Source of the DNA: Rhizobacter sp. SG703
GTDB taxonomy: Bacteria > Pseudomonadota > Gammaproteobacteria > Burkholderiales > Burkholderiaceae_C
Direction: 5' to 3'
Assembly: GCF_012275445.1 (NCBI RefSeq)
Contig: NZ_JAAZQK010000006.1
Coordinates: 1-64,000, forward strand
Length of the DNA: 64,000 nucleotides
Position 1 is the stretch's first letter. Every line of letters starts with the position of its first letter. Positions 1,087 to 42,259 of this stretch are shown in pieces. The notes beneath the pieces were generated by a model that was not told where the DNA came from, made no database searches, and was given only the letters and a program-made list of their open reading frames with translations. The translations under genes were made by a program, and so were the position numbers.

Positions 1087-1099
1087 TAATCTGAGGTTG

Positions 1100-1148
1100 T
1101 GGCGCACTGTGGCGCAGACCAGAAAGGGGTTCTGGTGCCTCGGGTCGG
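1100..1148. other. Left attachment site (distal att repeat)
   Basis: This 49-base block matches 42142-42190 with a single mismatch (G at 1126, A at 42168). In the right copy its last 16 bases are the 3' end of tRNA-Leu. Here the match stops 8 bases after CTCGGGTC and no tRNA follows. This is the footprint expected when a tyrosine integrase inserts an element at a tRNA 3' end and leaves a partial copy at the far boundary. Confidence 0.85.
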
Positions 1149-2213: not shown

Positions 2214-2259
2214 GTATGCGTCCGGCGAAGTCATCTTGAAGTCGGGTTAGGAGCAAAGG

Positions 2260-2999: not shown

Positions 3000-3026
3000 C
3001 GGGTCGCAATTCTCGAATCTGCTGAT

Positions 3027-4654: not shown

Positions 4655-4687
4655 TCGACGTCACCGTATTCAAGCGAGCAGATTCGG

Positions 4688-4957: not shown

Positions 4958-5043
4958 CCTGAGTTCCTCTGGCGTACAACGCCGCCGTCATGGTACGACG
5001 GCTCGGCATGTCCAAATTCAAGATGGGTTCGCCGGACGCATAC

Positions 5044-6136: not shown

Positions 6137-6457
6137 ATGACCTACAGATTTTTTCCATCCACCCTCGATCGCTACCTGGCACTAATAGTTGCAGCTCTCT
6201 TCGGTGCCTCAACTACAGGATGTAGCGGCCCCTCTGATCTGCAGGTGGCAGAGGATTTTTCGAGGGAATATCCTCGGTGCACGCTAATGAAAGCCGATGG
6301 CGGCGAATCAGAGGGTGGCTACATATGGATAAAGGTATGGTTTCAATGCGCCGGCGACACCCAACAACACGGGAACTGGTTTCGATACATGGAGAAGGAT
6401 GGCGTGTGGATATTCGTTCCAAGCCGCTCTGTGACACATCCTGATCGCATCCGCTAG
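6137..6457 (+). CDS. Small predicted lipoprotein
   Basis: A 106-residue protein from the ATG at 6137 (the open frame begins at 5987, but the upstream residues look non-coding). A hydrophobic stretch (RYLALIVAALFGASTTG) is followed by Cys about residue 27, a weak lipobox, so it is probably an exported lipoprotein. The mature part has a few conserved-looking aromatic residues (GGYIWIKVWFQC, GNWFRYMEKDGVWIFV). I do not recognise the family. The stop codon TAG lies exactly at the left end of the following insertion sequence; without that element the codon would read TAA, so the protein end is unchanged. A start at 6071 is an alternative. Confidence 0.5.
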   Translation: MTYRFFPSTLDRYLALIVAALFGASTTGCSGPSDLQVAEDFSREYPRCTLMKADGGESEGGYIWIKVWFQCAGDTQQHGNWFRYMEKDGVWIFVPSRSVTHPDRIR

Positions 6458-7651: not shown

Positions 7652-7705
7652 CTAACGCAATATCAGCGCAAGCAGTTGTCAAGCATTGCATCTCTACTTC
7701 AGAGC

Positions 7706-10947: not shown

Positions 10948-10953
10948 AGCCCC

Positions 10954-11286
10954 TCACTCCCTTCCAATTAGTTGTTGCACGTAACCCGCGGGCGATAAGG
11001 ACGGATATACCAGCCTTAGGCCGCCCGTCGAATTCGAAATCAGCACACCCTCATCCTCAGAATTTTCATTCGGCCACTTCATTTCATACGGCCACGCGTC
11101 CGTCATGCAATAGACGTGCGCGCTTTTTTTTGGCATTGCGTCAGCGAAATCGGCGAATAGGCCCAACACTCCAAGGCAAACGGTCTCACCCGTCCCCGCA
11201 ACCTGGCCTTGCTTTGGCATATCAACACCGCCTGCACGAGAACTCAGGTCTAACCTGACATTTCGCCAACAGAGAGACTGCGTCAT
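10954..11286 (-). CDS. Small protein between RHS genes, unknown
   Basis: A 110-residue frame wedged tightly between two RHS-operon genes. Its ATG at 11286 lies one base after the stop of the upstream 899-residue gene, and its stop lies 6 bases before the start of the RHS-core gene. A GGGAG ribosome-binding site overlaps the upstream stop. This spacing argues for a translated, coupled gene. The protein has no signal peptide and no recognised motif; the second half (DAWPYEMKWPNENSEDEG) is acidic. It could be a chaperone- or immunity-like partner of the RHS proteins, but that is only a guess from position. Confidence 0.5.
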   Translation of the reverse strand: MTQSLCWRNVRLDLSSRAGGVDMPKQGQVAGTGETVCLGVLGLFADFADAMPKKSAHVYCMTDAWPYEMKWPNENSEDEGVLISNSTGGLRLVYPSLSPAGYVQQLIGRE

Positions 11287-11287
11287 C

Positions 11288-13987: not shown

Positions 13988-13990
13988 GCC

Positions 13991-16420
13991 TCACTCCTTC
14001 CCAGTGTTCTGTTGAATGCGCCCGAGCGCGTCCATCACGCGCGCAAGACTTCGCTTTAGGCTGCCCGTCGGATCCTTGATGCTTTCGCCAGTCTTGCTGC
14101 CTGCGTTGTCCAGCTGGTACTCGATGCGGTTGCCCAGGTTGTCCTTCACCGCCTTCTGGCGATGCGCATCGTCGTACTCGTAGCCCACCCAGCTGCCGTC
14201 CGCCTGTGTCACCTGCACGAGTTGACCTACCGGGTCGTACGCGTAGGTCGTGGTCTCGCCGGCCACGCTGCTGGTCAGCAGGTGCTGCCGGGCGTCGTAG
14301 GTGTTGATCGTCACGTTGCCATTCGGGTCGGTGCTTTGCAGCAGTTGCCCCAACTTGTTGTACTTGTTGTAGGTCGTCACCTTGCCGGCTGCGTTGGTGA
14401 CCGTCATCAGATCACCCACTGTGTGATCCGCTGTGGTGTCGGTGTAGTAGGCGTACGTCGTCGTGTCGTTCACCGAAGTGCGCGGGCCCTTGGCGGTCAG
14501 CACCTGGCCGTACGCGTTGTAGGTCCACATCGACACGCGGCTGGCCACACCACTCTGCAATGGCGCACTGAAGCCCAGGTGACCGTCGACGTCCGTTGTG
14601 CTCTGCTCCACCTTCTTGCACAACACCGCGATCGGCTTGCCGCCGGGCAGCAGCGCGGTTGTCGGCGCACAGCTTGCGATGGCATTGCCATTGAACGGAT
14701 CAGGCTGGCCGTTGTAGACGCTCGTCGTGATGCGGCCCGGTTCCGCCAGCTTGGCGCTCACGCGCCAATCGGGATGCCATTGCGTACTGGTCTTGCGGGC
14801 ACCAGCGGGTACTGTCGCCGATGCACCCGCGCCTGGAGGTACCAGCGCCGCGCAGCTGGCCGTCTGCGCCAAACCATCGACGCGCGCGGTTTCCAAGTTG
14901 CGCCCGAGGTCATACGCGCGGCAGGACCGAACGCCATTGAAGTCATCGTGCTGACTCACGTTGCCATTCGCATCGAAGCTCTCGTTGCTTGTGCTCGCCG
15001 CACAACCAGCACCCGCCGGCTGGCTCTGGCTGGTCATGCGCGGTCGATCCGCTACCATGCCGACTCCGTACGCGACCGCATTGCCGTTGGGCGTCGTGGT
15101 GACCGGATCGACCGATGCGGACAGGCGGCGCGTGCGATGAAGCAGATTCGTCGCGCTGTCATAGGTTTCGCTCACCTGCATCACCGGTGCCTGCGTGTAG
15201 GTGACGCTGTAGTAGTCGACCCCACCAGCCAGGCTCGTCGAGATGGCGCGTCCCTTGTCGTCGTAGGCGATCGTGCCCCACACCGCCCCGTTCTCGTCGA
15301 CTACGCTGGTCAGCGCCCATGGAAACGTCGTGTTCTCGTAGTTCAGCTTGCGGACCTTCGTGTCCGGCCAGTGAATCTCGCGCAGCAGTCCCGCGGTGTC
15401 ATAGATCGGCACGATCTGCTGGCCGGCAGCATCCGTGATGTTGCTTGTGCGGCCCACACTGTCATATTGGAAGGACACGGTTCGCCCGAAGCGGTCAGCC
15501 ACACTGAGCAGATAGCCGACGCCAGGCGCAACAGACGCCGGTGTGCTGGCGGTACTGTAGGTGTACACGGCGGCGCTGCCGTCCGCACGGTCGATGCGCA
15601 GCAGTTGGCCCTGGCTGTCGTAGGTTTCTTGAGACCGCGCCGCTGGGTCGATGAGGCGATATCCGCCTGCAATGCTGACCAGGCGCTCGATCGTGCTGGC
15701 GTCTGTCGTGAACGTGCCGCTGCCATCGCCGCCGAACACGATGCTGTGCCCGCTGCCGCGCAGGGCGCGAGCGCCCCGATTTCCGGCGGTCACCACCAGC
15801 TTCTTTTGAAGACTGCTGATCCACAACGGCCCGAAATTGCCGCTCTCCGTATCGAACAGCCCGGTGTCCGGATCCTCCACCGGCAAACGGCGCAGCGTGT
15901 CGTAGACGATGCTCAACGACTGACCCGCAAAACGCAGGCCCAAATCCTGTTCGAATCGCTCGCTTCCCGTGATCGGATTGATGGGGTCGCCCACGCGCGG
16001 ACATGTTGGCGCTGGGGGCGGACCATCGGGCGGCGACGCCGGAACACACGCCGACCTCGCCGCGTACCAGACTTCATTGGCCGGGCAGCCACATCCAAGC
16101 GAAAGAGCATCCCAGGTCCTGGTCGGGATAGGCCCCTCCTGTCCCGACGGAGATCGAATCCACTTTATTTGGCATGCGAGCCCTTCGGGGATGGCCCGCA
16201 CTCGGGATGGAAGGGGATAGCTGCCGCAAGTAAACCCGCTCGGATCCCATCGGAGACAGTCAGTCACGAGGTTCTGCACTGCCACGCCTTGTGCCGCACA
16301 CTGAGCATTGAAGTCCGATACCTGTGCGGCCGTACATGCTCCCTGCGCTGAAGCCGATTCGACGCTAGCCAGCGCAATGAAGCAAGCCACACACCAATCC
16401 CGCCATGGACGAAAGTTCAT
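13991..16420 (-). CDS. Tandem YD-repeat protein 2 (DUF6531-like plus YD repeats, no core)
   Basis: An 809-residue paralogue in the middle of the operon. Its ATG overlaps the stop of the upstream gene (ATGA), so translation is coupled. The signal peptide is MNFRPWRDWCVACFIALASV to about residue 25. A Cys-rich region of about 110 residues unlike those of its neighbours follows, then a proline-rich joint and CPRVGDPINPITGSERFEQ (DUF6531-like). YD repeats run to MDALGRIQQNTGKE, with no core or toxin. The N-terminal half differs strongly from YD proteins 1 and 3, while the C-terminal third is nearly identical, which implies homogenisation of the 3' part only. Confidence 0.88.
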   Translation of the reverse strand: MNFRPWRDWCVACFIALASVESASAQGACTAAQVSDFNAQCAAQGVAVQNLVTDCLRWDPSGFTCGSYPLPSRVRAIPEGLACQIKWIRSPSGQEGPIPTRTWDALSLGCGCPANEVWYAARSACVPASPPDGPPPAPTCPRVGDPINPITGSERFEQDLGLRFAGQSLSIVYDTLRRLPVEDPDTGLFDTESGNFGPLWISSLQKKLVVTAGNRGARALRGSGHSIVFGGDGSGTFTTDASTIERLVSIAGGYRLIDPAARSQETYDSQGQLLRIDRADGSAAVYTYSTASTPASVAPGVGYLLSVADRFGRTVSFQYDSVGRTSNITDAAGQQIVPIYDTAGLLREIHWPDTKVRKLNYENTTFPWALTSVVDENGAVWGTIAYDDKGRAISTSLAGGVDYYSVTYTQAPVMQVSETYDSATNLLHRTRRLSASVDPVTTTPNGNAVAYGVGMVADRPRMTSQSQPAGAGCAASTSNESFDANGNVSQHDDFNGVRSCRAYDLGRNLETARVDGLAQTASCAALVPPGAGASATVPAGARKTSTQWHPDWRVSAKLAEPGRITTSVYNGQPDPFNGNAIASCAPTTALLPGGKPIAVLCKKVEQSTTDVDGHLGFSAPLQSGVASRVSMWTYNAYGQVLTAKGPRTSVNDTTTYAYYTDTTADHTVGDLMTVTNAAGKVTTYNKYNKLGQLLQSTDPNGNVTINTYDARQHLLTSSVAGETTTYAYDPVGQLVQVTQADGSWVGYEYDDAHRQKAVKDNLGNRIEYQLDNAGSKTGESIKDPTGSLKRSLARVMDALGRIQQNTGKE
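14124..14622 (-). repeat. Identical 499-bp tract, copy B (in YD gene 2)
   Basis: This is the partner of 11421-11919. The flanking coding sequence diverges at once at both ends (for example PDGKP against PGGKP just upstream in the protein), which is the pattern left by gene conversion or a very recent partial duplication. Confidence 0.85.
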
Positions 16421-19107
16421 TCCGAAGCCCCAGTACTCTGTTGTGTACGACCGAGTGCGTCCATCACGCGCGCGAGGCTTCGCTTCAGGCTGCCCGTCGG
16501 ATCCTTGACGCTCTCGCCGGTCTTGCTGCCCGCGTTGTTCAGCTGGTACTCGATGCGGTTGCCCAGGTTGTCCTTCACTGCTTTCTGGCGATGTGCGTCG
16601 TCGTACTCGTAGCCCACCCAGCTGCCGTCGGCCTGCGTCACCTGTACCAGTTGACCCACCGGGTCGTACGCGTAGGTCGTCGTCTCGCCCGCCACGCTGC
16701 TGGTCAGCAGCCGCTGACGCGCGTCGTAGGTGTTGACCGTCACGTTGCCGTTCGGGTCCGTGCTCTGCAGCAACTGACCCACCTTGTTGTACTTGTTGAA
16801 GGTCGTCACCTTGCCGGCAGCATTGGCGACCGTCATCAGATCACCCGCCGTGTGATCTGCCGTCGTGACGGTGTAGTAGGCGTACGTCGTCGTGTCGTTC
16901 ACCGTCGTGCGCGGGCCTTTGGCAGTCAACACCTGGCCATACTCGTTGTACGTCCACGTCGACACGCGATTAGCCACACCGCTCTGCAGTGACGCGCCTA
17001 AGCCCAGGTGACCGTCGACGTCCGTCGTGCTTTGCTCCACCTTCTTGCACAGCACTGCGATCGGCTTGCCATCCGGCAGCAGCGCAGTCGCAGGCGCACA
17101 GCTGGCCGCAGCATTGCCGTTGAAGGGATCCGGCTGCCCGTTGTAGACGCTCGTCGTGATGCGGCCTGGCCCCGATACCTTGGTCTCGAGGCGCCAGTCC
17201 GGGTGCCATTGCGTCGTGGTCTTGCGTGCATTGGCGGGCAGTGCCACGTTTTGCGCCGTCACTGTCGAGCAGGCCTGCGCCGTGCTCAAGCCTTCGATGC
17301 GCGTCGTTTCGAGGTTCCGCGATGGGTCGCTCACATGGCAGCTGCGCGTGCCGTTAAAGTCGTCTCGGCTCGCAACGTTCCCGTTGGCGTCGTACGTTTG
17401 CGCGCTGCTGCTTGCAGCACAGCCTGCTCCAGCCGGTTGGCTCTGCGCTGCGATGCGCGGCTGCCCATCGACGACGACGGCGTCGATCAAAGCAGCGCTG
17501 CCAGTCGGACCAACGATCGACGTCCCTTGCGGCGCCACCCACGTGTGGTCTCGCCGCGCGATACCGGTCGAGCTGTCAAACGTTTCAACAACGCTCCAGC
17601 GAGGTGGCACGGCATAGCTGACGCTATAGCGATTCGCACCGCCAGCCAGTTGCGTATCGACCACGCGCCCTTCGCTGTCATACCCATAGGTCGCCGAGCG
17701 ATGCTGGTTTTCATCGATCACTCCGGTCAGCGCCCAGTCGAAATCGCTTCTCTCGTGCAAGTACTGTCGGCCAGTTCCGTCTGGCCAGCTCACGCCCGAC
17801 AGATTTCCCGTCGCGTCATAGGTCAGCGTGAGGGTTTCCCCCGCCGCATCGATAACACGCACGATGCGGGGGTTGCCGACTACCGGCTGCTCATACTGGA
17901 ACTGCATCGAGCGCCCGAAATGGTCCAGCACACGAACGAGCAATCCAGGCGTCCGCGCCACGGCCGGAGACGTGCTTGCGTTGCTGTATTCATACGAGAG
18001 CCATCCGCCACTCGCGTAGGCGCTGCGAACCAGGCGCCCCTGGGGGTCATAGTCCTCATGCAGCCGTGCCCGCTGGTCCGTGTAACGGAAGCCGCTCTGT
18101 ACGGTCCGCAGCGTGTCCGAGATGCCTGGATCTGCGTCGTACGTTCCGGCTCCGTTCAGCAAGAAGCTGATCCAGCTGCCATTGCCTCGTGCGGCTTGAA
18201 TGCCGCGCTGTCCGGAGTCTTGGGCCACCAGTACCTTGTGCAGGTTGCTGAACCACACTTCATCGAATGCCGGGGCGGGCAATGCATTCAAGGGCATCGC
18301 CGTCCCACCCTGCGGAACTCTGCTTCGCGTGTCGTAAGTCGCTGTCAGTCCCAGGCCGCTGCTCACGGCTGGTACGAGCACTTCGCTTAAGACCTTGCTA
18401 CCCATCAGAGGGTAGATTGGATTGCCGATCGGGCACGCCTTCGGCGGCACGCCCCCTGCGTAGTTGTCGATCACCGGGATGCACGCGTGCTGCTGCTCCG
18501 ACCAGTTCGCGCCGTTGAAGCAATAGCACTGCGCGTCAGAGCCAATGCCAACGAGATTGCTGTTGCGACTGTCAGTACACATCCCAGTTCCGAGCTGCCA
18601 TCCACCAGAACCACCTTCCACGACAGCCCCATCCGAGTTCCGCTTAACGACAATTTCACCTTCAATCAAGAACGTGGTCCATTGGCCCGCAGTAGATGGC
18701 AGCGGCACCTCGACCTTCGGCGTACAAGTCGTAAAGGTTGCCGTGTATCCGGCGTTCGAATGAGCTTGCGCATAGATCTCGCAGCCATGTCTTAACGCGT
18801 CGGCAATATCACCCGGAGTGAGGTTGGAGTAGGCCTGCGCTCCGCCCATCCCATCGCTCGCCCAAAACAGGTCGAGACGATGCCGTGAAGCTGGATTGCA
18901 CCAGCTGTTAATGCATAACTGTGCTGCAGAAGGTTGAACGGCATGAACTTGGGCTGGCTGCGTGAGGCAGAGTACCGCCAAGACGAATGACACCACCAGT
19001 CGAAATGCACTTCCGATCTTGTCAGCAGTGGGGTTGATCCTCTGCGTGTTTGCTTGGCACCGACGCGAGACGACGCTCAATGGGTGCGTGACCCTGACTT
19101 CTTCCAT
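16417..19107 (-). CDS. Tandem YD-repeat protein 1 (DUF6531-like plus YD repeats, no core), first gene of the operon
   Basis: An 896-residue protein opening the RHS operon, with a GGGAGGAA ribosome-binding site 5 bases before the ATG. A signal peptide lies at about residues 33-56 (LVVSFVLAVLCLTQPAQVHA). The domain that follows, about 190 residues, has several Cys. Then come CPIGNPIYPLMGSKVLSEV (DUF6531-like) and TYDTRSRVP, followed by YD repeats to the end (MDALGRTQQSTGASE). Like YD proteins 2 and 3 it has no RHS core or C-terminal toxin domain. Its C-terminal third is related to theirs but more diverged. A surface or extracellular cage-forming role is inferred from the family. Confidence 0.88.
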   Translation of the reverse strand: MEEVRVTHPLSVVSRRCQANTQRINPTADKIGSAFRLVVSFVLAVLCLTQPAQVHAVQPSAAQLCINSWCNPASRHRLDLFWASDGMGGAQAYSNLTPGDIADALRHGCEIYAQAHSNAGYTATFTTCTPKVEVPLPSTAGQWTTFLIEGEIVVKRNSDGAVVEGGSGGWQLGTGMCTDSRNSNLVGIGSDAQCYCFNGANWSEQQHACIPVIDNYAGGVPPKACPIGNPIYPLMGSKVLSEVLVPAVSSGLGLTATYDTRSRVPQGGTAMPLNALPAPAFDEVWFSNLHKVLVAQDSGQRGIQAARGNGSWISFLLNGAGTYDADPGISDTLRTVQSGFRYTDQRARLHEDYDPQGRLVRSAYASGGWLSYEYSNASTSPAVARTPGLLVRVLDHFGRSMQFQYEQPVVGNPRIVRVIDAAGETLTLTYDATGNLSGVSWPDGTGRQYLHERSDFDWALTGVIDENQHRSATYGYDSEGRVVDTQLAGGANRYSVSYAVPPRWSVVETFDSSTGIARRDHTWVAPQGTSIVGPTGSAALIDAVVVDGQPRIAAQSQPAGAGCAASSSAQTYDANGNVASRDDFNGTRSCHVSDPSRNLETTRIEGLSTAQACSTVTAQNVALPANARKTTTQWHPDWRLETKVSGPGRITTSVYNGQPDPFNGNAAASCAPATALLPDGKPIAVLCKKVEQSTTDVDGHLGLGASLQSGVANRVSTWTYNEYGQVLTAKGPRTTVNDTTTYAYYTVTTADHTAGDLMTVANAAGKVTTFNKYNKVGQLLQSTDPNGNVTVNTYDARQRLLTSSVAGETTTYAYDPVGQLVQVTQADGSWVGYEYDDAHRQKAVKDNLGNRIEYQLNNAGSKTGESVKDPTGSLKRSLARVMDALGRTQQSTGASE

Positions 19108-20120: not shown

Positions 20121-22234
20121 GAATCGCTGACGATGAAAGAGTTCGGGACAACGGGACGGACGGCGGGTGGACGAGCTCGAGGTAGCGGAGGTGGTGCCGC
20201 GGCCACTGCACTCGGTTGTGCAGACGTCTGCACTGGCGCCGGATCGCTTCCCGCATTCGGGGCGGGTACCCCGCCGCCGGCGAACAGGTCCGGCTCAAGC
20301 CCGGCTTCCAGCCGCGCCCACAGCTTGTCGCTGAGCGTGTGCAGCCCGAGCATCTGCGCGCAGAACAGCGCGTACACCGTGCAGTCCAGCTTCTCGTTGC
20401 GCTTGCCGGCCGGCTTCAGCCAGCGGTGCTCTTCTCCCCTGCCCGTCTTCACCAGCATCCGGCTCTCGGCCGTCAGCTGGTCGTAGAACTCGGCTGTCAG
20501 CTCACGCGCGAAGTGCACGTAGCCGGGCCCCGGCTGACTGACCTGCAGCCGGCCGTAGAGCAAGTCCTTCGCGGTGTCGGTGCCGACGTGCCACAGCCGC
20601 ACACCCTTGCGGATCGTCTTGCCACGCTCGTTCACGTCGACCAGCACGCTCGCGCTCTTGATCGGCCGGCCCAGCCGCGTCTCGCCCTTCACCGCGTACA
20701 GGTTCTGGTTCGGCCGGTTGCGCACGAAGACGTAGCACTGGTGGGTGAAGTGGCCGCCGGTGTCGATCGCCACCGCGTCGGCCGACATCTCGACGCCGCA
20801 CACGTGCCGGTAGGTCGCCTTGATCGCCGGATCCAGCTTCAGATCCCATTCCCGCTGGTCAGCCGGGTTGCCGTAGATGACCAGGTCATCCACCACCCAC
20901 ATCTCCTCGCCCCGACCGAAGCCCCACACCACCAGCTCCCAGCGGTCGCCCTGCACGTCCACGCCGATCGCGAGCTTCACCGCTCCGCGCGGCACCGTGC
21001 GGAGGTGGTGGCCGTGCTTGCCGCGCAGCGCGAGCTGGCTGGCGTCGGTCTTCTCCAGCTCCTGCTCATAGGTCTCGCCGCGCGTGGTGTTGATGAAGGT
21101 TTTGAGGTCGCTGTCGTCGCCGGCCTGCGCCTTCTTCGCGGCCGTCAGCCAGTCGCGCACGATGCTCACCCAGGTCGCCTGCGGGCTGTAGGCAGTCCAG
21201 CAGAAGAACGCCACGTGCTTCGGCGGGCTGACCTCCTCGTCCGCCGCGTTCCTGAAGCGCAGCTGGACCGGGTCGCGCTCATCGATCCACAGCCCATCCT
21301 TGGCCTTCCACCGACCACGCCATGCCGCCAGGTACTCGGCCTGGGTAATGCACGCGCCGCAATGCGGGCAGACGTGGTGCGCAGTCTCCGGGTCGCCGTC
21401 CGTCCACTTCATCCCGTGCCGGGCGTCCTTGCCGCCCCAGTCGAGCGCGTGCTCGTCATCGCAGTGCGGGCAGCGAATGAAGTACTGGAAGCGCGCGTCC
21501 GCCTGGTGCTCGCGGTCCTCGATCAGGCTGAAGCCCTTGAGCTTCGGCGTGCTTCCCGCCACCGACTTTGGGAAGGTCGCGCCCTCGATGCGCTTGTCGC
21601 CCAGCCGGAAGGCGCTGCCCTCCTTCTCGATGTCGCGGTCGAAGCCGTCGGTCTCGTCGTAGTAGACGCAGTCCACGGTGATGCGGCGGTAGTTCTTCGC
21701 GGCCTTGCCGCCGCGCAGGTGGAGCTGGCAGCCGAGGAACCGCTTCTTCTTGATCGTGTTGTCCTTGGACTTGCGGTTGAACTTCGGGAACACGCGACGC
21801 ATCACCTTCACGTCGCGCAGCATCGGCTCCAGCTCGGTGGTGACGAAGTCATCGCGGTCCTCGTCGGTGGGTTGGTACACCGCCTGGTTGCGCCGCTTGT
21901 GCTCCGCAAAGTAGCCGATGGCCGCGAGGAAGATCTTGGTGTAGCCGGTGCGCGCCGACTTCCGCCAGGTCACGTGCGTGATCTCGTCGTGGCCGATGCA
22001 GTCGGCAATGGCGACTTGGTACGGGTAGGCCTCCCAGCGGCCCTGCTCGTAGCTGCTCTCCTCCGACAGGTAGAAGTGCTCGGCCATCCACTGCGACAGC
22101 CGCATCGGCGTCGGAGCTTCGAGCGGGCGCAGACCGCGGCGCAGTGCCGCGTTGATCTCGTCGCGCTGCTCGGTGCCGAGGTCCATGAGCGACATCGGCC
22201 GCTCCAGCTCGACCACATAGTTCATGTCGTTCAA
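20102..22234 (-). CDS. Phage terminase large subunit, GpA family
   Basis: A 710-residue DNA-packaging motor and nuclease of the lambda GpA type. The adenine/Walker-like region is around residues 88-102 (VTWRKSARTGYTKIF) and the Walker B region is DCVYYDETDGFD. A zinc-binding pair (CPHCDDEH and CPHCGACI) lies in the middle. The nuclease domain begins near LAIGVDVQGDRWELVVWGFG. It is full length compared with lambda gpA (641 residues), with a longer C-terminus. It overlaps the small subunit by 4 bases. In a complete phage portal and capsid genes follow; here only a Mor gene does. Confidence 0.93.
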   Translation of the reverse strand: MNDMNYVVELERPMSLMDLGTEQRDEINAALRRGLRPLEAPTPMRLSQWMAEHFYLSEESSYEQGRWEAYPYQVAIADCIGHDEITHVTWRKSARTGYTKIFLAAIGYFAEHKRRNQAVYQPTDEDRDDFVTTELEPMLRDVKVMRRVFPKFNRKSKDNTIKKKRFLGCQLHLRGGKAAKNYRRITVDCVYYDETDGFDRDIEKEGSAFRLGDKRIEGATFPKSVAGSTPKLKGFSLIEDREHQADARFQYFIRCPHCDDEHALDWGGKDARHGMKWTDGDPETAHHVCPHCGACITQAEYLAAWRGRWKAKDGLWIDERDPVQLRFRNAADEEVSPPKHVAFFCWTAYSPQATWVSIVRDWLTAAKKAQAGDDSDLKTFINTTRGETYEQELEKTDASQLALRGKHGHHLRTVPRGAVKLAIGVDVQGDRWELVVWGFGRGEEMWVVDDLVIYGNPADQREWDLKLDPAIKATYRHVCGVEMSADAVAIDTGGHFTHQCYVFVRNRPNQNLYAVKGETRLGRPIKSASVLVDVNERGKTIRKGVRLWHVGTDTAKDLLYGRLQVSQPGPGYVHFARELTAEFYDQLTAESRMLVKTGRGEEHRWLKPAGKRNEKLDCTVYALFCAQMLGLHTLSDKLWARLEAGLEPDLFAGGGVPAPNAGSDPAPVQTSAQPSAVAAAPPPLPRARPPAVRPVVPNSFIVSDSWSSRL

Positions 22235-33063: not shown

Positions 33064-36000
33064 TCAGAGGTCTTCTCCTTGCACAGGATCCACGTGCTGG
33101 ACAGGCGGCTCCACCGGGTCCTTCGCCTCCCCGTCGAAAGTGAGATATGGAGTCCGCATGCACTTCAACGCACGTAGCTTGATTGATCGTCGACGCGGCG
33201 GTGAGAAGGCAAGCTTTGCGGCGGCTTCAACCTCCTCCCCAAGAGCCTTGGCGTAGACCTTCATGCGCTGCTGTCGGTGGCCCTCAACAGCGGCATACGG
33301 GATGAGGATGCCGTTGCTCTTGCGGGCCATATCGCTAGCAAAGTCAACGGCGGCCCTCAAGAGTGCCTCTTGATTGCAGTGAGGGTGGCGCAGGCTTGCT
33401 TCGACGATGTGCCCCAAGAGCTCCGCGAACGCCTTGAACTGAGTGGGTTGCCGCGCCTGCAGTTCGAGGAACTCGAACGCAACGGATACCGCGGACACCA
33501 GTTCGGTGGAACTGGAGGCCAGGTAGTCCTTGAACCGCTGAAGCCCCTCGGTAAGCGCGCAGCCTCCTTGCAGGCACATAAACACCAGGTCATAGGAGCC
33601 TAGCGAGACGAAGTTGCGATTCCGCAGGAACATGCGGACGACAGCAAATGTGTACTGTAGATGCGTCAGCGCCCCTCGCTCTCCGGCGTACCGAAGCACC
33701 TCTTGTGGCCACACCGACTTGACCTTCGCGGCGATAAAGCCGAACTGCGCGAGTCGTCCGTCCACGGTAAACAGAGTCGCGTTCTTCTCCGCGGTCAGGA
33801 GCAGCGCCGCGTGTTCCTCGTCCTCGAGAACGTCTTGCGCTCGCTCCAGGTCTGCTGGAAGCTCCTCCGGGCCGTAGGCAGGAACCATCACACAGTGCTG
33901 GCGAACCGCGTCAACCATGCTTTGAATGAGCGCCTTCTGCCGCTCTCTATCCTGATTCGTGTACTCGACGAATCGCATGGCGTTGTGATCGAACATATGT
34001 CCGCCTGAGCGTTCGAGCTTCGCCTCTTCGAGTCGAGCTTCAAGAATCTCAACGGCCTTCGTTGAGATGTAGACGCGAGGTAGGGACGCCAGGGCGGCAA
34101 GGCAGTCAAGTGACGCCAGCTCGGCAATGGTCGCGGCATCAACCACATATTCGGCGTCTGCCCGCTTGAGCAGCTCGACAGTTGCCTCCCGTTGCTCCTT
34201 GGTACCAGCACAAACGAACAATGGAGGTGCGTCAGATGGCCACCCCAAGACCATGTCGACCACGCTTCGCCCGAGCAGATTACCCAGGATCCCCAGGGTA
34301 ATCGGACTATCTGCGTACCCTTGAAGAGCTCGTCGAGAGTGCTCTGACTGCCGCTTCAGCATGGCGTGCACGTGGCTGAAGTCGACGCCCTTGTCTGTCT
34401 TCGGAACCGGCACCGACATGACAGGTAGCTTAGAAGCAAGGGGCGAGTTCACCCGCGCCTGCGCGACGTGAAGCAAACGCCGGAACGTGGTCGTCACCTC
34501 TGCAACAACATAGCGGAGTTCGGTTCCGAAGGGGCCAGGCAGAGAGACTTGCTCGCCCACGGAAACACCCATAAGGCTGCGCGCTATGTCACCTGTAGGA
34601 GCGACCATGCCTTCGCGGGCCGGGAGGTCCGGCAGTCCCTCCGGGTCTATTGAGAGTGTCACCGTCCCGCCCAGCTCGTTCTTGAGCGTCACGGCTGAAC
34701 CCGGCTGAACTTTCGTCAGTTCCTCTTCCATAAAAGGAAGGTCTTGCGGCCCAGCCACAATGGCAATGAAGTACGCGGATGCGGCATCTACATCGTCGAG
34801 GTTGCGACGAAACATGCCATACAGCCGTAGCATGCCCGTCTCCTTGCGCTCAAAGCGAAGCTCAAGAGACGCAATCTGCGTGAGAAGTCGTGACGGCCCG
34901 GAAAGCTCGGAAGGAACCGACTCGAGTGCACGGTGGAACCGAGCCATCTTGCGCATCTTGAGGTCGAGCGCGAGACGCAGCAACCAGCCGCCAGCCTCAT
35001 GCGGCCGCCGCTCCACATTCAGCTCGGCGAGGGGCACCAGAAACTGCCAGTCCGAGGCTTGTTGCCCCAGGTCAATCGCCAGACTCAGCGCCCGCTCGTC
35101 ACTTGTCCAGGTGTCTGGGAACGATAGAACTAGTTCCTTCGCTTTGCGCAGTGCGCCAGTTCGCACATAGCAGCGAAGCAGCCGGTTGTGGAGTTCTGAG
35201 TGCTTGCCCCGTGGGGCGAGCAGCTCGTACTGACGGGCAGCAAGCTCCAGCTTGTCCGTGGCGAAGAGAAGGTCCGCGAGTAAGAGGCGCTCGGTTGGAG
35301 CTGTGTCTCTAGACACCAGAGTGCAGGCCTTTTCAATTGCTGCATCGGCTGCCGCCTCGTCCTTACCCGCATACAGTATCCGAGCGCCGCCACAAATGAT
35401 GGCGAGGCTGTCGGAGCTCGCAATATCTGCTGCCTTGACCTCCGTCAGTGCTTGCCGCTTGCCGGTGCCTGAACGCCAGAGGGCTACCCACCGCATAGCG
35501 CGCAGCAGGTGCGGCACATCGTTCTGCTGGAAGCCCTTTTGCGCGACCATTGCCTGCACGGCCTCGACCAGTTGGAAATCGCCCACATCGGCAGCGTTCT
35601 CCGCGAGCAAAATCAGAGCCTCTTCCTCGAGGTCATCGATCCATTCGCGGCCACGCTGGACCAGTTCGTCTAGCCGCTCCAACCGACGATAGGCTTCCAA
35701 AGCGACGCGTCTCAAGCGGGGGGTCAAAGCGCCGCTGTGTAGGGCCTCTTCCACGAGCACGAGAGTCTCTTCGGGCATGCCCAGCACAAGGTAGCTGTAG
35801 CCGAGGTGCACCAGCGTGTCTTCGACTGAGCCCGGCGATTGCACCGACCAAACGCGGTCTTTCCGCGGGGTTAGCGTCTCGACGGCCTGCTGGAGCGCGG
35901 CAATTGCCGCTTCGCTCACCAAACCATGAGCAACCTTGACAGGGTCACTGGCAGCCACCTCGAGCGCCAGCACCAACGCCGTGTTCCGCACAAAGAACCC

Positions 36001-37086
36001 AGCATCGGGTTTGGCGAGTGCCCTGGCGCTCAGCTCAACGGCACCTGCGAGGTCTCCGGCCTTCTTTCGTGCCCACGCCAATAGCTGCAGCACATCGCAG
36101 TCGTCGCGCATCGCAGCGGGAGCGTCGGCAGGCGCAAGGTGGAGGCCCTTGACCATCCTGGCATTTGCGTGGGCAATCCAGACATGGACCGAGGCGGGAA
36201 ACCTTGCGAGCGCCTCTTGCCCAGCGGTCAGTGCCTCGTCAACTCGGTCTTGAAATAGCAGCCCTCGAACCCAAGCGGCAGCAATCTTCTCGTCGTCCGG
36301 ATATAGCTCGGCGGCGCGGAGGAAGTCGGGTGCGGCAGCAGCGTCGCTTTCCAGATGCCACGTGCACACGCCACGTTGCACGTACCAGCGTGCCTGCTGG
36401 TGGGCGTCGAAGAGCGCCATGTCCGTGCCGATGCGCTGCAGGTCCTCAAGAGCGTCCTTGAACCTCGCCGCCCGAAGTACGTCGTTGATGGCGTCGAGCT
36501 GCGACGAGAGGTACTTGTTGACGGAATCTGGGCGACCACCCGGGAGCGCTGCCAAGACCTCGAGCTTGGAGTTGATGCTGAGGAGGTTCGCCTGGAGCCC
36601 TGCACTCTGTTCGTCCAATCGGTGAAAGACGGCACCAGGCGCGTTTGGTGCGTAGTCATTCTGCAGCTTGGGGCTGCCGCGAATGTGCCGGCAGAGATCC
36701 TGCCAGAACTCAATCTTGACGGGATACTGCCCTTTCGCGACCCGCGCATCTGAAAGGTCCTGAACCTCTCTAAGAAGGACCGCATCGCTAGTAGCTGTAG
36801 TAGCGACGACAAGGCGAACGATAGGAGTGTTCGCCAGGTCGGCTTCGGAGACTTCGTGTGCTACGTGTTTGAGCTTCAGCGCTCCGTCCGCATATCTCTT
36901 GCACTGAACGCCGAGACGGCCTTCTGGCGCGTCAATGAAAACGTCGATGCCGCCTTGCTTCTGGCCGCGGCGTCCGTTCGTCTGCGGCAACGGGTCGTTG
37001 AAAACTGTCCCGTAGATTCGGGCACACATGTCTTCGAACTCGCCATCGCCTACGGGCTTCGAAATCTCGAACTGCACGTTGTGCAT
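33064..37086 (-). CDS. 1340-residue Mrr-like nuclease, helical repeats, GreA/B-C-like and PIN-like protein
   Basis: A very large multidomain protein. Residues 1-130 form a PD-(D/E)XK (Mrr-like) nuclease: Glu18, GGIDVF with Asp48 and GVQCKRY with Gln61/Lys63. About 200-780 is a helical, TPR-like array (QQARWYVQRGVCTWHLESDA, YPDDEKIAAAWVRGLLFQDR, VHLGYSYLVLGMPEETL). About 790-875 resembles the GreA/GreB C-terminal domain (VTLKNELGGTVTL, PTGDIARSLMGVSVGEQVSL), which in Gre factors binds RNA polymerase. About 950-1140 is PIN-like (AEYVVDAATIAELASL, LLTAEKNATLFTVDGRLAQF). The start has GGGAGGAAG before ATG. No transmembrane segment. Domain assignments are by eye. Combining two nuclease-type domains with a polymerase-binding-like module suggests a conflict or abortive-infection effector. 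Confidence 0.75.
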   Translation of the reverse strand: MHNVQFEISKPVGDGEFEDMCARIYGTVFNDPLPQTNGRRGQKQGGIDVFIDAPEGRLGVQCKRYADGALKLKHVAHEVSEADLANTPIVRLVVATTATSDAVLLREVQDLSDARVAKGQYPVKIEFWQDLCRHIRGSPKLQNDYAPNAPGAVFHRLDEQSAGLQANLLSINSKLEVLAALPGGRPDSVNKYLSSQLDAINDVLRAARFKDALEDLQRIGTDMALFDAHQQARWYVQRGVCTWHLESDAAAAPDFLRAAELYPDDEKIAAAWVRGLLFQDRVDEALTAGQEALARFPASVHVWIAHANARMVKGLHLAPADAPAAMRDDCDVLQLLAWARKKAGDLAGAVELSARALAKPDAGFFVRNTALVLALEVAASDPVKVAHGLVSEAAIAALQQAVETLTPRKDRVWSVQSPGSVEDTLVHLGYSYLVLGMPEETLVLVEEALHSGALTPRLRRVALEAYRRLERLDELVQRGREWIDDLEEEALILLAENAADVGDFQLVEAVQAMVAQKGFQQNDVPHLLRAMRWVALWRSGTGKRQALTEVKAADIASSDSLAIICGGARILYAGKDEAAADAAIEKACTLVSRDTAPTERLLLADLLFATDKLELAARQYELLAPRGKHSELHNRLLRCYVRTGALRKAKELVLSFPDTWTSDERALSLAIDLGQQASDWQFLVPLAELNVERRPHEAGGWLLRLALDLKMRKMARFHRALESVPSELSGPSRLLTQIASLELRFERKETGMLRLYGMFRRNLDDVDAASAYFIAIVAGPQDLPFMEEELTKVQPGSAVTLKNELGGTVTLSIDPEGLPDLPAREGMVAPTGDIARSLMGVSVGEQVSLPGPFGTELRYVVAEVTTTFRRLLHVAQARVNSPLASKLPVMSVPVPKTDKGVDFSHVHAMLKRQSEHSRRALQGYADSPITLGILGNLLGRSVVDMVLGWPSDAPPLFVCAGTKEQREATVELLKRADAEYVVDAATIAELASLDCLAALASLPRVYISTKAVEILEARLEEAKLERSGGHMFDHNAMRFVEYTNQDRERQKALIQSMVDAVRQHCVMVPAYGPEELPADLERAQDVLEDEEHAALLLTAEKNATLFTVDGRLAQFGFIAAKVKSVWPQEVLRYAGERGALTHLQYTFAVVRMFLRNRNFVSLGSYDLVFMCLQGGCALTEGLQRFKDYLASSSTELVSAVSVAFEFLELQARQPTQFKAFAELLGHIVEASLRHPHCNQEALLRAAVDFASDMARKSNGILIPYAAVEGHRQQRMKVYAKALGEEVEAAAKLAFSPPRRRSIKLRALKCMRTPYLTFDGEAKDPVEPPVQHVDPVQGEDL

Positions 37087-37357
37087 CTTCCTCCCAGCGG
37101 GCGTGCCGACAGGTTCAACCAGGACCAGTCAGCGAGCAGATGTTGGGCATCTTACGAGGCAAGCCGCACGGACCCCAAAGCTGTCCGAGTCCGCACCTGT
37201 GCGGTGCGCCCTGGTAAGTGGGGCGGGGGGCATACTCCTTTAGTGCGACCCTTCGTCGACGTCATGCGACGGCATTGCTTCGCGACTTGGCTGCATCCGC
37301 CTCGTGAGGCAATACTGTGAGGCTGTGAGGAAGTCGTTTCAAAGGAGACCGAGATCT

Positions 37358-37759
37358 ATGGCACTCTTATCCTGCATCGGACGTGACGGTGTCTCTCGTG
37401 CGTTCGATTACACGCATTCGACAAACATCAGCGGCGAGCTCACCTTCCGCGCAAGAACAATTCCGCCCCCGTCGTCCGGAGACTTCTTCGAACTGACACT
37501 GGAAGAAGTCAATCCGAGCACTGTCCGAGTTGTCATGGCCAACCACTTCTCACGCATTGAGTACGCGGCAATGGGAATACCAGAGGCTCTTCTTCCTGAA
37601 GTCAAGCGGGTACTCGGCCGCGAAGTGGAGTCGAGCCCATCAAGTGGGGCGACTGCCAACATTCGTCGGTCTCCGGAAGCAACAAAGTACTGGGATCGCT
37701 TGGTTCTGCTAGGAGGTGCGATGTACGACGCTAGCCGAGATGTCTACTCAGTGCTGTAG
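37358..37759 (+). CDS. 133-residue protein beside the large nuclease gene, unknown
   Basis: The ATG at 37358 has an AAAGGAG ribosome-binding site. It is transcribed away from the 1340-residue gene across a 271-base divergent region, so the two could share control. The protein is mixed alpha/beta (SGDFFELTLEEVNPSTVRVV, YAAMGIPEALLPEVKRVLG) without a recognised family. A C-terminal stretch (ATKYWDRLVLLGGAMYDASR) looks helical. It could be a partner or regulator of the large protein; only the position supports that. Confidence 0.6.
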   Translation: MALLSCIGRDGVSRAFDYTHSTNISGELTFRARTIPPPSSGDFFELTLEEVNPSTVRVVMANHFSRIEYAAMGIPEALLPEVKRVLGREVESSPSSGATANIRRSPEATKYWDRLVLLGGAMYDASRDVYSVL

Positions 37760-38328: not shown

Positions 38329-39348
38329 GTGCCAATCGATCTGTTTCGTCCGCAAGTACCACCCGAACGTCAGCACATGATCTTTCGCCGGCTGATGGAA
38401 GATGAATACGCGCCCGAGCGCGCTGTGCTAGAGAACTGGGCTAAAGGGTTCGAGGATCGTGACGGCAAGTTCGTGCAAGAGCTGCAGCTGACATTCGAGT
38501 CGAGCTTTTGGGAGCTCTACCTGAATGCCGCGCTCAGAACGTGGGGGCTCGTACCGGACATGGCATTCACGTCTCCGGACTTTGTGATCCCACAGCCGAC
38601 ATGGTTGACGATGGAAGCCACCATCGCGGCCCCGCCGAAAGGCGGCGCGCCAGCATTCGGGTACGACGTCCGAGACATACCGGGCGACTTCTCGAAGTTC
38701 AATGCAGATGCAGCGGTCCGCATCTGCAACAGCTTCGACGCCAAGGCGCGCCGCTATCGAAACTACTACTCTGCACTGCCTCACGTTTCCGGGGCGCCTT
38801 TCGTCATAGCGATCGCAGCCTTTGATCGGCCACTTGCTCACTTCGCGGCCAGCCGTCCAGTCATCGCTGCTATCTACGGGCTGTATCACGACGAGGCGGC
38901 GACGTTACGCGACGCGGAGAGAGTCGCGAGCTACAACGTGGCAACCGCAGCCAAGTCGGAGACCGTTGATATTCCTGTGGGCCTATTCTGCGACGACAGC
39001 TACTCGGAGGTCTCAGCGGTCATCTACAGCTCACTCGCGACCTGGGGCAAAATGCGCGCTCTTGCAGACAATCCAACGGCCCTCACCATCTACAGATCCT
39101 TCCATCCGAAGGAAGGGAGCCTGTTCCCTGAGGTTCGAACGGCGCAAAAGTGCGACTACCAAGAGAACTTGATGGATGGCCTCTGGGTGCTGCATAACCC
39201 GTTTGCAAAGCATCCGATTGCCGACGGCGTTTTGTCTCATCCGAGGGTTGCGGAAGTACGTGTAGCGCAAGACGGTGAGCTGCAAATCACGGCGCCCGAC
39301 GACTTCCTCCTGCTCCGCATGCTCATGTCCGTCACGCCGAAGCCATAA
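38329..39348 (+). CDS. PD-(D/E)XK-like protein of unknown function
   Basis: A 339-residue protein. The GTG start at 38329 is chosen because the first residues (MPIDLFRPQVPPERQHMIF) fit the start that I recall for this family, although the ribosome-binding site is poor. Residues about 50-95 contain QELQLTFESSFWELYLNAAL, SPDFVI and LTMEATIA: the order E, PD, ExT is what remains of a PD-(D/E)XK nuclease core. I recall homologues carrying the label glycosaminoglycan attachment, which is almost certainly misleading. It converges with the SEFIR gene. A nuclease role is inferred, not shown. Confidence 0.65.
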   Translation: MPIDLFRPQVPPERQHMIFRRLMEDEYAPERAVLENWAKGFEDRDGKFVQELQLTFESSFWELYLNAALRTWGLVPDMAFTSPDFVIPQPTWLTMEATIAAPPKGGAPAFGYDVRDIPGDFSKFNADAAVRICNSFDAKARRYRNYYSALPHVSGAPFVIAIAAFDRPLAHFAASRPVIAAIYGLYHDEAATLRDAERVASYNVATAAKSETVDIPVGLFCDDSYSEVSAVIYSSLATWGKMRALADNPTALTIYRSFHPKEGSLFPEVRTAQKCDYQENLMDGLWVLHNPFAKHPIADGVLSHPRVAEVRVAQDGELQITAPDDFLLLRMLMSVTPKP

Positions 39349-39368: not shown

Positions 39369-40835
39369 TCACTTCGTCAGTACCTGCAGATTCACAGCCT
39401 CAGCAAAGTTGAACCGAGGGAAGCGTCCAAGGGAGAGTTGTTTGAAGTCATCGAGCAATGGGCGAGCAGCGTCGACTTTGCTCAACAGGTCGGCACCCGA
39501 TGCTGCGCCTATGGCAGTGTGAATGCCCTGTCGAATCTCGTCGTCCACCGCCTTTTGGAAGAGCGGTAGCCTTTGCGATGTCGATAGGTAGACAGCGGTG
39601 CGCGGCGCCCAAAACGGGTACATAGCGTCGACCACGCCGGCCTTGGCGTGCGCCACGCCATGGAGAGCCATGAAGACGTCGGCCTGAGCCAGTTCCAGGA
39701 ACGATGTGTGGTCGACCGAGCAGCGCTCCTTCAGCATGTCCGCAGTCATTGATGCTCTATTCGCACGCAGGCGATTGTTCCGGTGCTCATCCATTGACGC
39801 GATGTACGAGTCGAACGAGGTGATGTCGGAGGTTCGTACATTTCTGGATTCGGTCCTGATGAGATAGGGATAGCTCAGCAGGCGACGCAGGGACTTCCAA
39901 CGTTCGAATCGAATGAGTGCCGCGACAAGGATGAGCGTCACTTCGAGCGAGAAGAATCGGAAAGTGTCAGCCCAGACCTCCATGAACTGACTTTGATCGA
40001 GGGGCGGACCGAACTGCTGGCCCAGTTGCTCGAGCAAGTGAAACGAGGCCTTCAGGCATCTCGGGTCATCGCCCGAGAATCCAGCGACTGCGTCGGCATA
40101 GTCGGACAGCTGGTCGCGCAAGGCCTTGGTCTTAAGAATGGCCTGATAGATCTCCTCGTCGTAGCCGCTCTTGCTGGCGTCTGGCTTCACGTAAAGCCTT
40201 GACATCTCGGCGAGCAGGCTGCGAATGAACAGCATCTCCAATCCATCGCGGTTGGGCTTGCCTTCTCGTATAGCGCGAACAGCCGACAGGAACTCCTTTG
40301 CCGCGGGCAGTCCAACCCCTTCGTCCTTGAGAAAGGTTGGAGCCTCGCCGAGCTGCGGTTCTGGATAGAGCGGGCGATCGAAGATCTGGCGCAGGATCTC
40401 GTCCAAGCCCTCGCCGAACCTCTCGGCCGACGACATGTCGACGTAGATGCGCCCCTTCATGAAGACGGGAAGGAACGCCTCCCCGTCATCGCCACGCTCA
40501 CAGACGACCGGGATGAACTTTGTCTGATGCACCTTGGCGTAGAGCTCTTGCGAGATGATCTGGCTCTCGGTCCCTACGCCACCGGCGCGTGCGTCCGCCT
40601 TCTCCTGATACTTGCGGTCGCACAGAACTAGTACCTTGACCACGGTGACATCAGTCACCATCGACTCCATGAACACGTACTTGTCTTGACCTGGCTTCAG
40701 ATGCCACTTGTCGAGGATAGCGTCGACGCCGTGTGTTCTTAGGGCGGTGGCTAGATCCATCACGAGCTGCTCGTGCTCGGCGCCCGACCAGCTGTACGAA
40801 ATGAAGACCTTCGGATGTTCCTTGGCTGCACTCAC
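39369..40835 (-). CDS. SEFIR (TIR-like) domain protein
   Basis: A 488-residue protein with a GTG start at 40835 preceded by GGGAG. Residues about 8-150 form a SEFIR/TIR-like domain: KVFISYSWSGAEHEQLVMDL, then GVDAILDKWHLKPGQDKYVF and VKVLVLCDRKYQEKADA. Bacterial TIR and SEFIR proteins act in immunity, in many cases by consuming or modifying NAD. Residues about 190-488 are helical and probably sense or oligomerise (LIRFERWKSLRRLLSYPYLI, ADVFMALHGVAHAKAGVV). No transmembrane segment is clear. The neighbours are the PD-(D/E)XK-like gene and the integrase, so it is probably defence cargo. Confidence 0.82.
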   Translation of the reverse strand: MSAAKEHPKVFISYSWSGAEHEQLVMDLATALRTHGVDAILDKWHLKPGQDKYVFMESMVTDVTVVKVLVLCDRKYQEKADARAGGVGTESQIISQELYAKVHQTKFIPVVCERGDDGEAFLPVFMKGRIYVDMSSAERFGEGLDEILRQIFDRPLYPEPQLGEAPTFLKDEGVGLPAAKEFLSAVRAIREGKPNRDGLEMLFIRSLLAEMSRLYVKPDASKSGYDEEIYQAILKTKALRDQLSDYADAVAGFSGDDPRCLKASFHLLEQLGQQFGPPLDQSQFMEVWADTFRFFSLEVTLILVAALIRFERWKSLRRLLSYPYLIRTESRNVRTSDITSFDSYIASMDEHRNNRLRANRASMTADMLKERCSVDHTSFLELAQADVFMALHGVAHAKAGVVDAMYPFWAPRTAVYLSTSQRLPLFQKAVDDEIRQGIHTAIGAASGADLLSKVDAARPLLDDFKQLSLGRFPRFNFAEAVNLQVLTK

Positions 40836-41030: not shown

Positions 41031-42104
41031 CTAGTCAAGTTTCGCCGCAATGTCCGCAGCCGTCGCGTTGAAGTACCGAAGCGCCATCTTCATGTCGGTC
41101 CAGCCAAACATTCGACAGAGCTCGAAGGGCGTCAACTTTCCAGAGCTACCGAGCCGAGTCGCTGCCGTATGCCGCGACGCATGAAATGTGATGTCCCCGA
41201 GCTCCTTCGGCCGGTACTTCCGATACAGCGCATCTGCGCTGCTCGCCGAAGGTCCGAACGCCAGCTCACCGCCGGCCGACAATTCCAAGATCTCGATCGC
41301 TCGTCGACTCAGAGGAACGTTGCGCGCCTGACCATTCTTCGTCAGCGGAAGATGTGCAACCCGATTCTTGTTGTCGACGTTGCTAGCACGCAGGCCGAAG
41401 ATCTCGCCAGCGCGCATGCCGGTCTCCAGCGCAAAGAGAAGCCCCAACGCTACCCGCTGTGATTGGGTCGTTGGCGCGCCATCGGTATACCCGAGCGCCG
41501 CACACAAGGCCTTCACCTCCTTGGGCGACATCACGCGCTCCTTGCCCGGCGGCGGCGCAGGACTCTTGACGCGAGTCAGCACGTTGACCTTGAGCCAGCC
41601 CCACTCATCGAGCGCAATCCGGTACATGGCCCGGATTACGTTGAAGTCGCGCGCGATCGAACCTGGTGCGAGAGGCTTGCGGTCGACGCTTCCCGCCGCG
41701 AGCGAATCGCGCCAGGCGGACCACTCGTCCGATGTGATGTCCGCGAGCGGCTTGTCGATGAACGGAATCGTCGCCTTGAACTTCGCGATCCGGATACCCT
41801 CGGCACGCCATCCGCGCTTCTTGCTCGTCTCGGTTTCCTCGTATCGTTCGAAGGCCTGTCGAAGGGTCCTGCGAGGCACCTTGCCCACGCGACCGTCCTC
41901 GATCTCGGCCTCGCGTTCAGCGGCCCAACGGGTGGCCTCCGCCTTGGTCCGGAAGTTCTCCGAAGCACTCACTCCACGCTTGCGGACCTCGGCCCTCCAG
42001 CGCTCTCCCACCTTGCGAATCGTTGCCCTGCCTTGGCGCAAATTTGGCGCAATGGGGTGCAACTGAGGCTGCTTTCTGATCCGTTTTGATTCAGCTGCCG
42101 GCAC
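41031..42104 (-). CDS. int: Tyrosine-recombinase integrase of the element
   Basis: A 357-residue site-specific recombinase. The N-terminal part has an arm-type DNA-binding segment (WRAEVRKRGVSASENFRTKA) and a SAM-like core-binding domain (about 80-180). The catalytic residues are all visible: Arg231 (TGMRAGEIFGLR), His308 and Arg311 (HASRHTAATRL), Trp335 and the nucleophile Tyr344 (LRYFNATA). The start is GTG at 42104. It lies 71 bases inside the tRNA-Leu end of the element, the classic place for an integrase that uses the tRNA 3' end. It looks intact, so excision may still be possible. Confidence 0.93.
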   Translation of the reverse strand: MPAAESKRIRKQPQLHPIAPNLRQGRATIRKVGERWRAEVRKRGVSASENFRTKAEATRWAAEREAEIEDGRVGKVPRRTLRQAFERYEETETSKKRGWRAEGIRIAKFKATIPFIDKPLADITSDEWSAWRDSLAAGSVDRKPLAPGSIARDFNVIRAMYRIALDEWGWLKVNVLTRVKSPAPPPGKERVMSPKEVKALCAALGYTDGAPTTQSQRVALGLLFALETGMRAGEIFGLRASNVDNKNRVAHLPLTKNGQARNVPLSRRAIEILELSAGGELAFGPSASSADALYRKYRPKELGDITFHASRHTAATRLGSSGKLTPFELCRMFGWTDMKMALRYFNATAADIAAKLD

Positions 42105-42141
42105 CCGTACTGCGAGGATCGGCGCGGATTATCGAAGGTTT

Positions 42142-42190
42142 TGGCGCACTGTGGCGCAGACCAGAAAAGGGTTCTGGTGCCTCGGGTCGG
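42142..42190. other. Right attachment site overlapping tRNA-Leu
   Basis: This 49-base repeat matches 1100-1148 with one mismatch. Its last 16 bases (42175-42190) are the 3' end of the tRNA, including CCA; the first 33 lie just downstream of the tRNA. TGGCGCA words occur twice within it and again at 42035-42055 beside the integrase gene, likely integrase contacts. Confidence 0.88.
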
Positions 42191-42259
42191 AATCGAACCG
42201 ACACTCCTTGCGGAACGGGATTTTGAGTCCCGCGCGTCTACCAATTTCGCCACCGAGGC
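42175..42259 (-). tRNA. tRNA-Leu (anticodon CAA)
   Basis: Eighty-five bases with CCA encoded. The acceptor stem pairs GCCTCGG with CCGAGGC. The anticodon loop is CTCAAAA between CGGGA and TCCCG, giving anticodon CAA (reads UUG). The long variable arm of a class II tRNA is present and the T arm reads GGTTCGATTCC. The gene is complete and restored by the element's right end, so insertion should not have damaged it. Confidence 0.95.

Follow-up and report, generated by a model that had tools for sequence, protein, structure and literature searches.

The closest described relative of the locus reported here is the TPR-GreA/B-C-PIN conflict system, which Kaur et al. (2021, eLife 10:e70394, PMC8195603) predicted to be a bacterial immune system. 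There, the system is predicted to act on RNA polymerase complexes hijacked by viruses, with the PIN domain cutting the transcript. The variable N-terminal effectors, among which a restriction endonuclease (REase) is listed, are predicted to serve as a second line (PMC8195603). No experimental study of this system was found in the literature searched, in which the coverage of subscription journals was thin. PIN proteins have been validated in defence by DefensePredictor, and the accessible text describes DS-3 and DS-5, one- or two-protein systems in which the PIN RNase is needed for defence (PMC13092281). Here, we analysed a window of 64,000 nucleotides from Rhizobacter sp. SG703 (assembly GCF_012275445.1, contig NZ_JAAZQK010000006.1, positions 1 to 64,000). 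The window contains a giant gene whose product, judging from its domain matches, almost certainly belongs to the TPR-GreA/B-C-PIN family.

The original prediction, made from the letters of the window, had joined a PD-(D/E)XK nuclease, a long helical scaffold, a GreA/GreB-like domain and a PIN-like RNase in a single chain, and had suspected that related TPR/Gre/PIN combinations were already proposed. The suspicion was correct. The idea of a new domain combination was rejected, given that Kaur et al. name the same core and place an REase among its heads (PMC8195603). The gene and its parts are as follows.

33064..37086, minus strand: TPR-GreA/B-C-PIN gene with an Mrr-like head, 1340 residues and a stop codon
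36667..37086, minus strand: putative Mrr-like PD-(D/E)XK head, residues about 1-140 (E18, D48, Q61-x-K63), from a marginal Mrr_cat match and conserved residues
34777..36531, minus strand: TPR superhelix, residues about 186-770, from weak Pfam TPR matches, a helical-repeat model and fold matches
34492..34716, minus strand: GreA/GreB C-terminal-type domain, residues 791-865, from PF01272, hhalign, a class-wide profile and Foldseek
33739..34146, minus strand: PIN domain, residues 981-1116 (D983, E989, D1109), from PF20698, Foldseek and PDB-sequence matches
33067..33666, minus strand: helical C-terminal tail, residues 1141-1340, from the structure model

The 1340-residue chain was open at exactly the coordinates first proposed, and the segment limits proposed with it (about 1-130, 200-780, 790-875 and 950-1140) were about right. 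A GGGAGG stretch stands 3 bases 5' of the ATG. In 50 random sequences of 64 kb with the same G+C, the longest open reading frame (ORF) had 454 codons, versus 1340 here. The two nearest relatives, at locus L001 (a metagenome-assembled genome, MAG, of Burkholderiales) and locus L002 (a Rhodoferax MAG), covered the whole length at 83% and 85% identity, respectively. The whole-gene ratio of nonsynonymous to synonymous substitution rates (dN/dS) was 0.128 against L001 and 0.115 against L002. By part, the ratio was 0.04-0.05 in the head, which was the most constrained, 0.09-0.11 in the linker and TPR region, 0.04-0.08 in residues 881-970 and 0.13-0.18 in the PIN domain. The Gre-like part had the highest or next-highest ratio (0.24-0.29), and the C-terminal tail (0.18-0.26) was likewise fastest or near-fastest. 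The giant gene is under purifying selection and all of its parts are retained. A chance ORF or a misread frame was ruled out by the random-sequence control together with the dN/dS ratios.

Residues 981-1116 matched PF20698, the "PIN domain associated with the TPR-GreAB-C-PIN system", with an E-value (E) of 1e-18 (68.3 bits; cut-off, 27.8). Asp983 and Asp1109 were invariant in all 29 aligned family members, whatever the head, and an acid stood at position 1090 in 18 of the 29, in an alignment that is uncertain for distant rows. In a model built from eight sequences, the PIN domain had a predicted local distance difference test (pLDDT) score mostly of 82-94, except in an insert at about 1020-1049. 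In Foldseek, PAE2754 was matched at E 4.3e-3, and VapC4 and RNA-free RNase P were matched weakly (E 0.1-0.6); the family profile matched RNA-free RNase P sequences at E 3.6e-4. The PF20698 match and the PIN fold matches bear out the PIN-like RNase domain that had been proposed.

The GreA/GreB-like domain was found by several routes. Searched with the protein, the GreA_GreB C-terminal Pfam family (PF01272) matched residues 791-865 at E 1.7e-4 with 21.9 bits, below the cut-off of 26.9; in a nucleotide search of the organism's own genome, the match reached 27.3 bits and passed the cut-off. In hhalign, 16 of the 17 A1 family rows, cut to residues 770-880, were compared with the GreA and GreB of the same genome. 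The alignments covered GreA 85-155 and GreB 103-180, each with a P-value of 2e-6 at a probability of about 89%. Among 120 control ORFs taken from 147 eligible ones the highest probability was 3.8%, and slices from the PIN, TPR and tail regions stayed below 1%. In addition, the full family profile was run against 369 genomes of the class and matched in 77 genomes (80 rows). By hand count, 51 of the 80 rows lay wholly on positions 774-895 and 8 on 1109-1163. Eight of these class-wide loci were opened and judged by eye (no family search). A GreA/GreB-like ORF was present in five of the seven that fall in the Gre range, and the other two were not located; the single PIN-range locus held a PIN-like protein. 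Foldseek ranked GreA/GreB and Gfh1 first, one of them below E 0.001. The view that the Gre match is a chance hit, raised by the Pfam cut-off, was rejected by the hhalign comparison with its control ORFs and by the class-wide search. Residues 791-865 are thus homologous to the C-terminal domain of the Gre factors, and the proposed GreA/GreB-like domain was upheld by hhalign, the class-wide profile and Foldseek.

The long helical scaffold is a TPR superhelix. In the whole protein the Pfam TPR matches were weak and none exceeded its own cut-off. The helical-repeat model had a pLDDT mostly of 86-96 over residues 241-650, the Foldseek matches listed for the region were TPR or helical-repeat proteins, and consensus TPR structures were matched by the family profile; model, fold and profile matches agree with the scaffold as first described.

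The head is likely an REase. Among the 18 members with an Mrr-like head, Asp48 and Gln61 of the putative catalytic quartet were present in all 18, Lys63 in 17 and Glu18 in 16. When the heads of relatives were compared with Pfam, that of L003 exceeded the Mrr_cat cut-off and that of L044 the Mrr_cat_2 cut-off; L055 stayed below, and the L014 head had no Pfam match. We consider it fairly probable that the head cuts DNA. The Mrr-like head, as far as its matches indicate, is common to other systems besides TPR-GreA/B-C-PIN genes. Relatives of the head alone occurred on 48 plasmid records, many of them enterobacterial, with most of the core absent.

Relatives shared a common core from about residue 180 on and differed in their heads, of which there were four types in 29 members. 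The commonest alternative, of about 290 residues, was found in nine members (L004, L005, L012, L013, L051-L054 and L062). It had no Pfam match in the four of nine that were scanned, and all nine carried a TDDL...Q[MV]K motif, a pattern that recalls PD-(D/E)XK nucleases. DUF4297 is a possible candidate for this head. The head of L048 was DUF4365 (E 1.7e-11), and the PIN match of L048 alone was just under the cut-off (25.8 bits). In the L042 head there was no Pfam match and no recognised nuclease; its GGDK stretch recalls EAD-type adaptors. A core tree of the 29 rows was built by a quick method with the head columns excluded. On this tree the four head labels need three changes. The members with the DDL head formed one group, with weak support (64), among the Mrr rows, and the positions of L042 and L048, on long branches, are unsure. 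Starred branches of the tree split the Mrr label in two. Fairly close relatives have therefore exchanged the head of their common core on at least one occasion, with no change in the PIN aspartates. L051 (genome G677), with the alternative head, comes from the same genus as the Rhizobacter window. Separately, the relative at L079 (7716-11718; genome G965) lies in two pieces in different frames, and at least one family copy therefore looks broken.

The gene lies within a stretch bounded by two att-like repeats. The features that define this setting are given below.

42136..42190, no strand: att-like repeat, a 55-base direct repeat overlapping the 3' end of tRNA-Leu(CAA) 42175-42259
1094..1148, no strand: the other att-like repeat copy, 96% over 55 bases; the pair bounds about 41 kb
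41031..42104, minus strand: tyrosine integrase of the carrying element (Phage_integrase, E 3.9e-18)
38329..39348, plus strand: PD-T7-5 defence homologue (PADLOC, E 3e-101)
39369..40835, minus strand: bSEFIR defence homologue (PADLOC, E 2.7e-93; Pfam SEFIR, E 3.8e-17)

The integrase is adjoined by the giant gene and the PD-T7-5 and bSEFIR homologues, and a terminase large subunit, a replication initiator, a CI-like repressor and a ParB-like protein also lie between the repeats. The att-bounded stretch is a prophage-like integrated element. Four long minus-strand ORFs at 8632-19107 share one PHROG (phrog_10385), at least one of them being YD-repeat/RHS-like by eye, and ORFs resembling IS66 and IS5 transposases by eye stand at 2260-4654 and 5242-7614 near the left repeat. 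Because these YD-repeat-like and transposase-like ORFs occupy its left side, the stretch is a mosaic and may not be a single intact prophage. ARAGORN called a tRNA-Cys at 20176-20263 (plus strand) inside the terminase ORF on the opposite strand, which may be a spurious prediction. A small ORF divergent from the giant gene, at 37304-37759 on the plus strand (or from the ATG at 37358), gave no sign of being its partner: it had no family match and no relative in the 33 other loci (28 loci plus 6 further, one a duplicate).

The gene neighbourhoods of relatives were surveyed without matched control regions. Three of 34 loci, namely the window, L052 (5396-6844) and L004 (3136-4359), had a bSEFIR gene upstream and on the strand of the family gene; in the window, bSEFIR is separated from the giant gene by PD-T7-5 and a small ORF. 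Among the five neighbours in the window, only bSEFIR recurred, in 2 of the 33 other loci, which points to a mostly standalone gene; three loci are too few for a fixed bSEFIR partnership. Other relatives had defence-type neighbours, namely Dsr1/SIR2 (L012), an FRG-domain PDC-S15 gene (L051), a gene with an abortive-infection annotation (L013) and Shedu (L017). Just upstream of the relative at L050, three large ORFs of 537, 1370 and 736 amino acids run in one direction (471-8416), and the second has a weak ResIII match. This set had no PADLOC match and may be an undescribed defence operon.

The family is sporadic. Of 300 genomes of the order, 5 carried PF20698 at E 0.001 and 4 above the cut-off; for 398 genomes of the phylum the counts were 14 and 10 (own genome included throughout). 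Of 399 genomes of the taxonomic family, 17 showed some match to the window protein, which extended over most of the core in 11 of them (hand count). The core was found on 9 of 72,556 plasmid records. No match was obtained in 50,697 phage records at E 1e-5. In viral contigs the single protein found no relatives and the family alignment two, and a fold search of BFVD returned nothing at E 0.001.

On balance, we favour the reading that the giant protein belongs to the TPR-GreA/B-C-PIN conflict system, has an Mrr-like exchangeable effector and is carried as prophage-like cargo, most likely as protection of the lysogen against other phages or mobile elements. A conflict role as such is highly probable. 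The setting fits it because PD-T7-5 and bSEFIR homologues accompany the gene in a prophage-like element and other defence-type genes stand beside its relatives. The protein would be an autoinhibited single-protein immune nuclease. The TPR superhelix may hold the chain inactive and sense an infection cue, and the Gre-like domain would tether the chain to RNA polymerase, at the rim of its secondary channel. As the constant RNase, the PIN domain would cut RNA at that place or nearby, and the Mrr-like head would cut DNA as a second or terminal blow, killing or arresting the infected cell. The original functional prediction, in which a transcription-docked sensor cuts nucleic acids or shuts down the cell, closely matches the published one (PMC8195603) and is not new. 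An extension of this account is transcription-coupled restriction. Here the polymerase-parked chain would cut both the transcript (PIN) and the transcribed DNA (Mrr-like head), polymerase on invader genes would be the targeting device, and heads would be exchanged to escape phage inhibitors. We regard this extension as unlikely.

Several results weigh against the favoured reading. The match of Mrr_cat to residues 1-180 alone was just below its cut-off (E 4.7e-4; 20.7 bits against 21), and AlphaFold2 models of the head from five sequences had a pLDDT of 32-46 over residues 1-70 and 38-73 over residues 71-140. Such a model is uninformative and neither favours nor refutes a PD-(D/E)XK fold. The proposed PD-(D/E)XK head therefore stands on its present and conserved Glu18, Asp48, Gln61 and Lys63, with a marginal Mrr match and a poorly modelled fold. 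Structure prediction by segment succeeded for the TPR and PIN regions, with Foldseek matches for Gre and PIN, and failed to model the head with confidence. In the PIN domain, Glu989 was kept in 19 of the 29 members. PADLOC had no model matching the giant protein. Among ten neighbours of relatives, six had no PADLOC match beyond the named ones, all but one of them from L050 and L003, and seven neighbours in all had no match of any kind in the same run. No recognised defence neighbour was seen by eye at L001 and L002. The protein also lacks the N-terminal coiled coil of the Gre factors, which bears the catalytic acids: only GreA 85-155 aligns, and TPR helices precede that part. Finally, Ser121 and Ser124 of GreA align with Ala829 and Gly832, with serine in 7 and 9 of the 17 rows, respectively. 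The loss of these serines is weak evidence, because a GreA S124L variant still bound polymerase in a study in which, as far as its accessible text goes, Ser121 and Ser124 were mutated (PMC7527559). Docking on RNA polymerase is plausible and about an even call.

In a first rival account, the protein is an abortive-infection nuclease from this family and its Gre-like domain serves only for structure or protein binding. The TPR region would sense, and the PIN domain would act in solution on tRNA or bulk RNA, independently of transcription. This rival is rather unlikely but draws on the missing coiled coil and helix serines, on the highest or next-highest dN/dS among the parts in the Gre-like part, and on the resemblance of the PIN domain to VapC and RNA-free RNase P proteins, whose families are known for tRNA substrates. 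Against it, the Gre fold is kept in the family, the profile picks out GreA/GreB proteins blind, and we know of no other role for a Gre C-terminal-type domain. A second rival, quite unlikely, is restriction-like: the Mrr-like head would do most of the work, against invader DNA, and TPR-Gre-PIN would chiefly sense and regulate. It would account for the head being the most constrained part, for the DDL...QxK residues in the commonest alternative head (9 of 9) and for head relatives on plasmids without most of the core, yet D983 and D1109 are invariant in all 29 members whatever the head, and L042 lacks a recognised nuclease head. That the protein is a non-immune regulator or RNA-processing factor of the prophage or the host is very improbable; nothing speaks for it directly apart from L001 and L002, which lack a defence neighbour by eye, and the sporadic distribution (11 of 399 genomes with a match that spans most of the core), the occurrence on plasmids and a prophage-like element, the exchanged heads and the defence homologues nearby all count against it.

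If the family works as predicted, the gene encodes an immune protein for which the host RNA polymerase serves as docking site. The gene is a convenient test case, being complete, under selection, with both nuclease sites intact and with two relatives at 83-85% identity. Relatives that share the core and carry a different head, one of them in the same genus, offer a natural comparison of head against core. What is new here is the head replacement on a shared core among close relatives, the conservation of both nuclease sites, and the att-bounded setting beside PD-T7-5 and bSEFIR homologues.

Compared with known systems, the protein shares a homologous C-terminal globular domain with the transcription factors GreA, GreB and Gfh1; it differs as a giant protein without the N-terminal coiled coil and is not a Gre factor. 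Lacking the coiled coil, it cannot set off the intrinsic cleavage activity of the polymerase in the manner of Gre. With Mrr-type restriction endonucleases it shares a marginal Mrr_cat match and the E/D/Q-x-K residues; there was no Mrr_N match among the Pfam matches listed here, and in this family several heads, of which it is one, can be exchanged. The PIN fold and its aspartates are shared with VapC-type PIN toxins and RNA-free RNase P. Unlike in these, the PIN domain here lies within a 1340-residue chain, and no antitoxin-like partner was recognised beside the gene. With DS-3 and DS-5, compared by description only, it shares a PIN domain, here in a predicted defence protein; a Gre-like domain is not mentioned for them in the accessible text (PMC13092281). 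The TPR-GreA/B-C-PIN conflict system differs in that here the gene is prophage-like cargo with bSEFIR upstream in 3 of 34 loci, and none of these differences excludes membership. It shares the order of parts, the PF20698 PIN domain, the GreA/B-C domain between TPR and PIN, the variable N-terminal effector and the mostly standalone gene.

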